NCBI RefSeq assembly: GCF_005222225.1
Contig: NZ_CP036536.1
Span: 3,992,001 to 4,056,000 of the forward strand
Source: Salinimonas lutimaris
Lineage (GTDB): Bacteria; Pseudomonadota; Gammaproteobacteria; Enterobacterales; Alteromonadaceae
Direction: 5' to 3'
DNA length: 64,000 nucleotides
Positions 4,535-25,500 of this stretch are shown piece by piece. Every line of letters begins with the position of its first letter. Positions within the stretch are counted from its first letter, which is position 1. The notes below the pieces were generated by a model, which saw only the letters and a program-made list of their open reading frames with translations, searched no databases and had not been told where the DNA came from. Both the position numbers and the translations under genes were made by a program.

Positions 4535-5434
4535 TTATACCTGGTCCAGCTGTGTTTGTAACACCGGTATCAGGGTATGCATACGCGCGGGCAAGTCCCG
4601 GTCACTGCGATAAACCAGATACAGCGGCTCTTCAATCAGCGGAATATTTCCCATTACGCTTAACGCGCTTTGATACGCACTGGCCTCAAGCACGCTGCGT
4701 GGCAGCACAGTAAACCCCAACCCCATAGACACCGGCAGTAAAATCTCATGAATCTGATTCACAAAGCTCTTGGTCGGTATTTTGTTAAACGGCACTGCTC
4801 TGAGCACATCCGACTCACTGCGATTTAAATACAGACTGGTGTAATAGTCGCTGTCGGGATGGCGCACCATCCCCAGGTCAAACAGGTAATCTGCCAGATT
4901 CTGCGCGCCCTGCGGGCGACTGGCCGGAACAATAATGGCAATGGCCTCGCGACCGATTTTACGGGCCTCAAAGCTCAGTGAGTCCGGCTTTTCGGTGACA
5001 ATACCCAGGTCAATCTGATTACTTTTCAGTGCATTTAGCACACTTTGATAGGGCGCGGCCTGCAAATGAATGCGCAGTCCCGGATGGGCCTGCTGCTCTT
5101 CAAGCAACCTGGCGTACAGGCGGATCGCGCTGGAGCCGGAACAAGCTATCCGGCAGGTACCGTTGTACGGATCATCGGCTCCCAACTGCATCAGTAACTG
5201 CTGCTCGTTATCTTCAAGCGTCTGGGCGTAGGTGTACAGCTTTTCACCCTGCATGGTGACAGTAAAGGTTTTTCCCGTTCGCTTAATTAACGGATAGCCA
5301 CAGGCAGACTCCAGTTTCTGAATATGCTGACTGACTCCCGGTTGAGTCATAAACAGTTTTTCGGCGGTCCGGGTAAAATGTCCCGTGTCCACCAGCACGC
5401 TGAAGGTACGCAACCAGATGGGATTTATTTTCAT
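4535..5434 (-). CDS. LysR-family transcriptional regulator
   Basis: 299 residues, the typical LysR length. The helix-turn-helix covers about 5-62, with FTRTAEKLFMTQPGVSQHIQ as the core and a PLIKRTGK wing. The rest is the effector-binding domain. It ends 7 bases after the OYE terminator and is divergent from the glyoxalase-fold gene, with 98 AT-rich bases between the starts. That region (about 5440-5480) contains two TTATCA elements and an ATAA/TTAT dyad that could be an operator; this is suggestive only. Control of the VOC gene is inferred from the divergent layout. Confidence 0.9.
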   Translation of the reverse strand: MKINPIWLRTFSVLVDTGHFTRTAEKLFMTQPGVSQHIQKLESACGYPLIKRTGKTFTVTMQGEKLYTYAQTLEDNEQQLLMQLGADDPYNGTCRIACSGSSAIRLYARLLEEQQAHPGLRIHLQAAPYQSVLNALKSNQIDLGIVTEKPDSLSFEARKIGREAIAIIVPASRPQGAQNLADYLFDLGMVRHPDSDYYTSLYLNRSESDVLRAVPFNKIPTKSFVNQIHEILLPVSMGLGFTVLPRSVLEASAYQSALSVMGNIPLIEEPLYLVYRSDRDLPARMHTLIPVLQTQLDQV

Positions 5435-5532: not shown

Positions 5533-6042
5533 ATGAGTGAACAAGCCCCTTTCCCCAGAACATTTTCACACATCGGTCTGTCAGTACCTGACCTGGATGC
5601 GGCGGTAAAATTTTATACCGAAGTACTTGGCTGGTACCTGATTATGGAACCTACCAGAATTGAAGAAGACGACAGCGCTATTGGTGAAATGTGTACGGAT
5701 GTTTTTGGTGCAGGCTGGGGAGAATTCCGGATTGCTCACTTGTCGACCGGTGATCGTATCGGAGTAGAGATTTTTGAATTTAAAAATCAGGAAAACCCGG
5801 AAAATAACTTTGAATACTGGAAAACCGGTATCTTCCACTTCTGCGTACAGGATCCTGATGTAGAAGGTCTGGCTGAGAAAATTGAAGCGGCTGGCGGTAA
5901 ACGCCGGATGCCGAAGCCTCGCTATTACTATCCGGGCGAAAAACCCTTCCGCATGATTTATATGGAAGACCCGTTTGGTAATATTCTGGAAATTTACAGC
6001 CATAGCTATGAGTTAACTTACTCAGCCGGCGCTTACCAGTAA
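5533..6042 (+). CDS. VOC superfamily protein, glyoxalase I-like
   Basis: 169 residues with two beta-alpha-beta-beta-beta modules of the vicinal oxygen chelate fold (about 10-85 and 98-158). The four expected metal ligands are at their usual places: H13 (SHIGLSV), E79 (GVEIFEF), H102 (FHFCV) and E153 (GNILEIYS). This His/Glu/His/Glu set is that of metal-dependent glyoxalase I and relatives, but the protein lacks enough family-specific sequence for me to call it gloA. CCGGAGCA precedes the ATG by about 7 bases. It is divergent from a LysR gene. The likely role is on methylglyoxal or another small electrophile in the cytoplasm; the reaction is unproven. Confidence 0.85.
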   Translation: MSEQAPFPRTFSHIGLSVPDLDAAVKFYTEVLGWYLIMEPTRIEEDDSAIGEMCTDVFGAGWGEFRIAHLSTGDRIGVEIFEFKNQENPENNFEYWKTGIFHFCVQDPDVEGLAEKIEAAGGKRRMPKPRYYYPGEKPFRMIYMEDPFGNILEIYSHSYELTYSAGAYQ

Positions 6043-6045
6043 ATA

Positions 6046-6074
6046 AAAAAAGGCCCGCTACACAAGTAGCGGGC
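6046..6074 (-). terminator. terminator of the small RNA candidate
   Basis: Stem of 9 bp, GCCCGCTAC / GTAGCGGGC with a 4-base loop, followed on the minus strand by a T-rich tract (the A-run at 6044-6051 on the plus strand). It works only leftward. Confidence 0.75.
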
Positions 6075-6151
6075 AAACTCATCACATAAGAAAGTGACAA
6101 ACGAAGGATCGAACAGTAAGTGCCTGAGGGAGTCAGGCGGAAGTGTTACTG
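6048..6151 (-). ncRNA. candidate small RNA
   Basis: Not a known family that I recognise. The region between the VOC gene and the yceI terminator holds the signals of an independent minus-strand transcript. There is a promoter-like pair CTGACT (6184-6179) and TATATT (6162-6157) with 16 bases between. Then comes a long imperfect stem-loop at 6154-6110 whose arms pair CGA-CAGTAA-(internal loop)-GCCTGA around a CTCCC loop. A single-stranded linker follows. The end is a 9-bp GCCCGCTAC / GTAGCGGGC hairpin (6074-6053) followed on this strand by seven T. The hairpin has no T-run on the plus strand, so it cannot serve the VOC gene as a normal terminator. Expected length is about 100 nt. Expression is untested. 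Confidence 0.5.
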
Positions 6152-6156
6152 TCGAA

Positions 6157-6184
6157 AATATATACGTACTTTCTAATAAGTCAG
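6157..6184 (-). promoter_or_regulatory. putative promoter of the small RNA candidate
   Basis: On the minus strand CTGACT (4 of 6 to TTGACA) is followed after 16 bases by TATATT (5 of 6 to TATAAT). The predicted start is near 6151. Confidence 0.35.
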
Positions 6185-6230
6185 TTCTTTTTTATCACCT
6201 TTTTTTACTATTTTTTTGTGTTGCTCAGGC

Positions 6231-6259
6231 ATAAAAAAAGCAAAGCGTCATGCTTTGCT
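6231..6259 (-). terminator. terminator of the nudE-cysQ-yceI operon
   Basis: Stem AGCAAAGC / GCTTTGCT with a 5-base loop, followed on the minus strand by seven T (A-run at 6233-6239 on the plus strand). It lies 38 bases past the yceI stop. Confidence 0.85.
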
Positions 6260-6296: not shown

Positions 6297-6869
6297 TTAC
6301 TGCTGATCAAAAGTCACGGCAAAGGTAACCGGTACAGCCATGGTGATACTGTCCAGCCCGGCAATGCTCTGCAGCATCTTAACCCCTTCAGCCAGGTCAA
6401 AATCACCGGCATTTAACACGGTCGGAGCCACGGTGGAGACCGTCAGCGTGTCATCATTTAAGCGATTAATCATCACCTTGAAGGTGGTCGCGACATTTTT
6501 GCCGTGCAAATCAATAGCCCCTTCAATGGTACGAATTTGCGACTCGCCGGCTGACATCGACATCACATCATCAGGCAGGCTGGCAGTAAACATCGCATTG
6601 GAAAATTCAGCGGTTTCAAACAGCTTTTCCTGCATTCGGGTATTGCGGATCTCTATGGCTGTATTCACCGAGCTCAGCGGTACCGCGACCGTCAGTTTGC
6701 CATCATTGCCCACACTACCGCTTAGTGTATCAAACTGATGTACCTCGGTGATTTGCGCATTTTTGGTGCTTAAAAAATGCAGTTCAGAAGCACCGGAGTC
6801 CAGTTGCCAGGCCGCAGAGGCCGGCAACGCCAGTAGCGCAGAAAGCGCCATTACAGAACGCGTTATCAT
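6297..6869 (-). CDS. YceI family periplasmic protein
   Basis: 190 residues. Residues 1-19 form a Sec signal peptide ending in PASAA, so the mature protein is periplasmic. The rest is the YceI-like lipocalin-type beta-barrel, opening with the family's WQLDSGASELHFLSTKN pattern and containing the central NTRMQEKLFETAEF segment. YceI proteins bind long isoprenoid-type lipids in a central pore; their physiological role is poorly known. The start lies 2 bases after the cysQ stop, so it is the last gene of a tight nudE-cysQ-yceI operon, and a strong terminator follows. There is no partner cytochrome b561, which often accompanies YceI elsewhere. Confidence 0.9.
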   Translation of the reverse strand: MITRSVMALSALLALPASAAWQLDSGASELHFLSTKNAQITEVHQFDTLSGSVGNDGKLTVAVPLSSVNTAIEIRNTRMQEKLFETAEFSNAMFTASLPDDVMSMSAGESQIRTIEGAIDLHGKNVATTFKVMINRLNDDTLTVSTVAPTVLNAGDFDLAEGVKMLQSIAGLDSITMAVPVTFAVTFDQQ

Positions 6870-24588: not shown

Positions 24589-25500
24589 ATGATGAGCAAC
24601 CTAGACCAACTACACCGTTTTATGATTGACCAGGCCAATGTGCGTGGTGAACTGGCGCGGCTGGACAACAGCCTGCAGCATATTATTCATAACTATGAAT
24701 ACCCGGTACAGATTCAGCAGTTGTTGGCCGAAATGTCGGCTGCTACCTGCCTGCTAACGGCTATCTTAAAGTTTAAAGGCGAGATTTCCCTGCAAATTCA
24801 GGGACAGGGTCTGATGCGCTATGCCGTATTAAGTGCTACGTCCGATTTTACCATGCGTGGCGTAGCCCGCTGGGATGAAAGTGTGACAACCCTGCCTGAA
24901 AGCTTCAGCGAACTGGTGGGTGAAAAAGGCGTGCTGGTTATCACTATTTCTCCCCAAGAAGGCGAGCGCTATCAGGGTGTGGTAGCCCTGGACAAACCTA
25001 CTCTGGCCGAGTGCATTGATGCCTACTTCCAGCAGTCTGAACAGCTGGCGACCACAGTGCGCCTGTTTACCGACCTCAGTGACCCGGAAAATACCAAGGC
25101 CGCCGGCATGCTGCTGCAGGTGCTGCCTACTCAGGCAGAGCGTACGGATGTGGCTGAAAACTCCGGGTTTGATCACCTGAGCACACTGGCCAGTACCCTG
25201 ACCACCGAAGAAATGTTCAGCCTGCCGGTGCAGGATATTCTGTATCGTCTGTATCATCAGGAAGACGTGACGCTGTTTGAGCCTAACGATATTTCGTTTG
25301 CTTGTACCTGCTCTCGCGCCCGCAGCGCCGAGGCGCTTCGTAATGTGGATAAAGCCGAACTGCTGGACATTGTGGCAGAAGAAGGCGCCATTAAAATGAA
25401 TTGTCAGTATTGCCACACTGAATACCGTTTTGACAGTATTGATGTAGAAGCCATTCATGGCGGTCATGTGGCAGACAATACCCCGGACCAGGCACAGTAA
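24589..25500 (+). CDS. hslO: redox-regulated chaperone Hsp33
   Basis: 303 residues. The C-terminal redox switch is intact: C239 and C241 (CTC) with C272 and C275 (CQYC) bind zinc when reduced and form disulfides on oxidation, activating the holdase. The N-terminal domain holds the family's AATCLLTAILKFKGEISLQ segment. A second ATG one codon on is an equal start. In an operon with hslR, ending at a strong terminator. Confidence 0.95.
   Translation: MMSNLDQLHRFMIDQANVRGELARLDNSLQHIIHNYEYPVQIQQLLAEMSAATCLLTAILKFKGEISLQIQGQGLMRYAVLSATSDFTMRGVARWDESVTTLPESFSELVGEKGVLVITISPQEGERYQGVVALDKPTLAECIDAYFQQSEQLATTVRLFTDLSDPENTKAAGMLLQVLPTQAERTDVAENSGFDHLSTLASTLTTEEMFSLPVQDILYRLYHQEDVTLFEPNDISFACTCSRARSAEALRNVDKAELLDIVAEEGAIKMNCQYCHTEYRFDSIDVEAIHGGHVADNTPDQAQ

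Follow-up and report, generated by a model that had tools for sequence, protein, structure and literature searches.

Features of the locus

The window analysed here is a 64,000-nt stretch of Salinimonas lutimaris contig NZ_CP036536.1 (positions 3,992,001 to 4,056,000). Its minus strand contains a stand-alone gene for a non-coding small RNA (sRNA) of about 108 nt, bounded by the terminator of the yceI operon on one side and by the stop codon of a VOC (glyoxalase-family) gene on the other (Table 1). An initial annotation, made from the sequence of the window, had placed two minus-strand terminators in tandem here, the first of which would already end the yceI transcript. Both terminators are real, and the strong first one lies between yceI and the sRNA. 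In the window genome it isolates the sRNA from read-through.

Table 1. Features at the sRNA locus (window coordinates)
Feature	Position	Strand	Remarks
VOC / glyoxalase-family gene	5533..6042	+	Pfam PF00903, E 2.6e-18; synteny
sRNA gene	6045..6153	-	5' end predicted; 3' end at the T7 tract
sRNA intrinsic terminator	6045..6074	-	9-bp stem and T7; -18.7 kcal/mol, z -6.1
Core hairpin	6078..6101	-	UUUGUCAC-UUUCUUAU-GUGAUGAG; exposed CU-rich loop, second putative seed
Linker UCCUUCG	6102..6108	-	SD-complementary, single-stranded, putative seed; identical in 5/5 species
5' stem-loop	6112..6153	-	outer stem GACAGUAA/UUACUGUU; inner stem GCCUGA/UCAGGC
Putative promoter region	6157..6186	-	AAC (6186-6184), N17, CGTA (6166-6163), then TATATT (6162-6157)
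yceI operon terminator	6233..6259	-	upstream of the sRNA; 8-bp stem, then T run; -14.4 kcal/mol, z -4.5
yceI	6297..6869	-	Pfam PF04264, E 9e-14; upstream neighbour in the window genome only

Predicted fold of the sRNA

Read on the minus strand, the 5' part of the sRNA runs GACAGUAA-CACUUCC-GCCUGA-CUCCC-UCAGGC-AC-UUACUGUU-CGA-UCCUUCG and the 3' part continues UUUGUCAC-UUUCUUAU-GUGAUGAG-UUU-GCCCGCUAC-UUGU-GUAGCGGGC-C-U7. The predicted fold consists of a 5' stem-loop, an unpaired linker (AUCCUUCGU), a core hairpin and an intrinsic terminator. The long stem-loop, the anti-ribosome-site-like linker and the closing 9-bp hairpin with T7 of the initial annotation were all recovered; the core hairpin, which is conserved and sits between linker and terminator, had been missed. 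For the 108-nt RNA the computed energy is -39.6 kcal/mol (z -6.7), a value that none of 200 shuffled sequences matched, but the folding energy alone is no argument for an sRNA because the terminator (z -6.1 by itself) supplies part of this value. The mean unpaired probability of the UCCUUCG linker was 0.67 in the window and 0.97-0.99 in the relatives described below, and that of the core hairpin loop was 0.85-0.99. A small protein gene was considered and rejected, since a 1-base deletion in the core of the window copy and the lack of a shared start leave no conserved open reading frame.

Distribution and genomic context

The sRNA gene was found in five sequenced species of related marine bacteria, namely four Salinimonas-type genomes, S. 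lutimaris (G000), G004, Salinimonas profundi (L017 = G022) and S. chungwhensis (L018 = G031), and Alteromonas indica (L049 = G032). Comparison across Alteromonadaceae genomes had been proposed as the check on the locus, and its recurrence in four other species is the decisive evidence. A nucleotide search of 61 genomes returned one clear relative, and the DNA beside VOC homologues yielded three more. When 60 genus genomes were searched by pattern, the identical set of members came back, with no mismatch.

We then used a covariance model, R1, that covers only the part before the terminator, which was held out. The window genome has a single copy (75.7 bits). The five members scored 75-92 bits; as they are the model's own training sequences, what counts is how far all other matches fall below them. 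Among 397 family and 60 genus genomes no other match rose above 28 bits, and no further member was found in 395 order genomes, about 800 genomes being covered in all. One order-level match of 35.4 bits was rejected, as it falls within a long open frame that looks like a chemotaxis receptor and has no terminator after it. A terminator follows the core in all five homologues and is absent after every inspected weak match (20-28 bits), and these were rejected too. Searches of plasmid, phage and viral contigs for the sRNA gave nothing, and the model did not detect it in the close relatives G026 and G066. Most likely, the gene was already present in the ancestor of Salinimonas and Alteromonas indica.

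In all five species the sRNA is tail-to-tail with the same VOC gene. Upstream, its neighbour is yceI in the window, a divergent lipoprotein-like gene in G004, S. profundi and S. chungwhensis, and hslO in A. indica. Since this neighbour differs in three ways, the yceI context is incidental and the unit is autonomous. The link to nudE-cysQ-yceI that had been proposed was thus not borne out; the element is tied to VOC instead, and yceI is replaced in all four relatives. In the three genomes with a divergent upstream gene there is no adjacent upstream mRNA on the sRNA strand, so the sRNA would need its own promoter there and read-through as the only source is excluded. A cis-acting leader is also unlikely by position, because LysR (4535-5434), the next minus-strand gene past VOC, is separated from the sRNA by this antisense gene.

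VOC occurs without the sRNA in G026, G066 and G014. In G026 and G066 hslO adjoins VOC and the sRNA is missing between them. In the window hslO lies at 24589-25500 on the plus strand, about 18.5 kb from VOC, which it flanks in A. indica, G026 and G066, and what looks like a type II general secretion gene cluster separates the two. The gene order points to a local rearrangement in which the sRNA stayed beside VOC.

Sequence conservation and base pairing

Between the five species a 29-nt core of the sRNA is 83-100% identical, against 32-50% for the four-fold degenerate sites of VOC, which are close to saturation (for each species pair, P lies between 8e-6 and 2e-13). The core loop UUUCU(C/U)AU (UUUCUYAU) and the upper stem are nearly invariant; the inner loop of the 5' stem is not conserved. 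The outer 5' stem remained paired in 39/39 helix cells across the five species despite sequence changes at five of its eight pairs, and the core stem in 38/40. When the helix partners were slid against each other, pairing fell from 97.5% to 34-68%.

Pairing was strand-specific: on the minus strand 77 of the 79 helix cells are paired, on the plus strand 55. As 22 of the 77 are G-U pairs, which break on the plus strand, the RNA is indicated to be the minus strand. The stems vary yet stay paired. In 54 of 500 cases, shuffling the paired columns gave a covariation score as high as the observed one, and with five sequences the covariation is suggestive only. Judged from these alignments, selection has kept the unpaired CU-rich sequence and not the sequence of the stems.

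These results show a conserved, structured, non-coding minus-strand RNA unit with its own terminator. Its conservation, its strand-specific pairing, the three kinds of upstream neighbour and the lack of an Rfam match together make a good case for an independent new sRNA gene, and we consider it very probable that this uncatalogued gene is real.

Putative promoter region

The promoter-like pair reported earlier is present as CTGACT-16-TATATT and scores 9/12, but the sigma-70 scan was no better than chance, with two such sites in the scanned region against 3.0 expected. A second motif, AAC-N17/18-CGTA, occurs in 5/5 species 10-11 nt upstream of ACAGU in the 5' stem, where its flanks are only 25-42% identical between the window and the other members. 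Its chance rate from shuffles was 6e-5 to 4e-4 per sequence; because the motif was picked after looking and G004, S. profundi and S. chungwhensis are closely related, the combined significance is less than the product of these rates. We take this motif to resemble ECF-type promoters.

Dependence on RpoE (sigma-E), as for MicA and RybB, was rejected: the region upstream of rpoE has GAACTTT...GTCTA and the sRNA has no TCTA -10 element. A second ECF-type sigma gene has upstream of it an AAACC box and, after that, a CAACTAA-like box, similar across species (L274 in S. lutimaris, L275 in S. profundi, L273 in S. chungwhensis, L276 in A. indica), which is perhaps its autoregulated promoter. Upstream of the putative sRNA promoter, the plus strand at 6186-6219 is unusually T-rich, with several runs of T6-T7 and no hairpin.

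Possible mode of action and targets

The sRNA stands alone between genes and carries an intrinsic terminator and U tract of its own, which is the arrangement of Hfq-dependent trans-acting sRNAs, and Hfq is encoded in 5/5 genomes (above the TIGR02383 cut-off). Its linker is complementary to Shine-Dalgarno sequences of the GAAGGA type. By analogy, the conserved unpaired CU-rich core fits the pattern of base-pairing sRNAs, alpha-r14 in particular. We propose that the sRNA is probably a trans-acting base-pairing regulator. It would be transcribed from its own promoter just upstream, the 3' hairpin and U tract would bind Hfq, and the 5' hairpin may protect the RNA. The unpaired CU-rich segments, the AUCCUUCGU linker and the UUUCUYAU loop, would pair in trans with the purine-rich ribosome binding sites (RBS) of target mRNAs, and this pairing would mostly repress translation.

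For targets we searched for the RBS complement CGAAGGAW-N-ATG. A Wzc-like polysaccharide gene was the only one carrying the site in all five genomes, but it was rejected as target evidence, since G026, G066 and G070, which lack the sRNA by the model, keep the same RBS. The RBS of this exopolysaccharide gene (G000:C1:3350117, orthologues L229-L236), CGAAGGAAnANCU-AUG, is near-identical in eight related genomes, and the sequence just upstream of it varies. A tyrosine-recombinase-like gene carries the complement in three genomes (G000:C1:293317, G004:C2:116260, G022:C11:2439); its DNA is nearly identical there, upstream region included, which makes it uninformative on targeting and suggests a recently moved element. 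The loop complement gave no recurrent gene at start codons across species, and allowing one mismatch to a 12-base loop complement produced more matches than could be used. One could imagine that the sRNA is driven by an ECF-type sigma factor through AAC-N17/18-CGTA and that its linker shuts off the Wzc-like gene at an RBS (CGAAGGA) older than the sRNA itself, so that a recent regulator was recruited onto a pre-existing RBS. We offer this as speculation and give it little credence.

The sRNA might instead be a cis-antisense regulator: the VOC mRNA is convergent, its 3' UTR is complementary to the sRNA, and the sRNA would set the stability or termination of that mRNA. The constant tail-to-tail VOC gene, kept in 5/5 species while the other side changed in three ways, speaks for this, as does the first plus-strand terminator-like site past VOC, which lies at 6239-6259 and would let the VOC mRNA span the whole sRNA. 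An antisense role, however, does not call for any specific sequence, and here the unpaired core hardly varies; the G-U pairing marks the minus-strand RNA as the folded one, and VOC exists without the sRNA in three genomes. We therefore regard an antisense role as unlikely. Rather doubtful, too, is an RNA that titrates a protein or another sRNA and does not pair with mRNA. A compact multi-hairpin RNA with invariant loops would suit such a sponge, but the CU-rich linkers are better suited to pairing with purine-rich sites and there is no run of GGA motifs, unlike in the Aln1 RNAs of Alteromonas macleodii, which are described as CsrA-sequestering (PMC5864184).

That the RNA is a processed 3' UTR product, or its terminator a mere back-up for the upstream operon, with no separate gene, is very improbable. 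Same-strand upstream genes do exist in the window (yceI) and in A. indica (hslO), but the divergent gene in the other three genomes leaves no adjacent same-strand mRNA as a source, and in the window a strong terminator intervenes. Two terminators arranged by chance with no RNA gene between them, an idea favoured by the chance-level promoter scan, is scarcely tenable in view of a core conserved far above silent sites and of homologues in four other species.

Comparison with known sRNAs

To our knowledge, few sRNAs of the Alteromonas group have been characterised, although the group is ecologically important. The sRNA described here forms a clade-restricted family whose core is under strong selection, whose limits are known and whose neighbours come in three natural arrangements. 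It offers a clear example of the origin of a new regulatory RNA and of its retention beside an unrelated gene.

We found no paper describing this sRNA. The initial annotation had not recognised it as a named RNA, and Rfam 15 agrees: no family reached its gathering cut-off in the window or in L128, L129 and L130. The best sub-threshold scores were 25 of 102 bits and 25.6 of 49.5 bits, and the terminator accounts for much of what such matches score. RF02837, anti-hemB of Burkholderia, gave the best of them (E 0.00026 in a 191-base search) and has a similar hairpin-terminator layout, but its loop is different, no hemB context was seen, and 22.1-25.6 bits against a gathering score of 49.5 do not support membership. 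Neither do 21.1-22 bits against a gathering score of 50 for RF02278, the Betaproteobacteria toxic small RNA. Like these double-hairpin RNAs (PMC5688073), the Salinimonas sRNA combines a CU-rich hairpin loop with a GC-rich terminator close behind it, but it has an extra 5' hairpin and much of the score comes from the terminator.

In the anti-Shine-Dalgarno sRNAs alpha-r14 / NfeR1 of alphaproteobacteria, the stems differ and the CU-rich, SD-complementary unpaired segments are ultraconserved (PMC10746234). The Salinimonas sRNA likewise varies in its stems and keeps its CU-rich unpaired segments. However, those RNAs come from another class of bacteria and carry the motif CCUCCUCCC three times, whereas here there is one UCCUUCG linker and a UUUCUYAU loop; CCUCCUCCC is absent from all five members, and the sRNA was not assigned to this family.

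Within its own genus group, the primary transcriptome of A. macleodii contains 127 chromosomal sRNAs, of which the available part of the report discusses by name only the CsrA-sequestering Aln1a-c (PMC5864184). Aln1a-c are sRNAs of the same genus group, but the Salinimonas sRNA lacks their repeated GGA motif.

The sRNA resembles the Hfq sRNAs of enterobacteria in length, modular layout, U5-U7 tail and an hfq gene in the host; it differs in that there is no common sequence family and its own Hfq binding is putative. Such sRNAs generally have their own promoter, a seed and a U-tailed terminator. The Salinimonas sRNA is a new family of this established kind.
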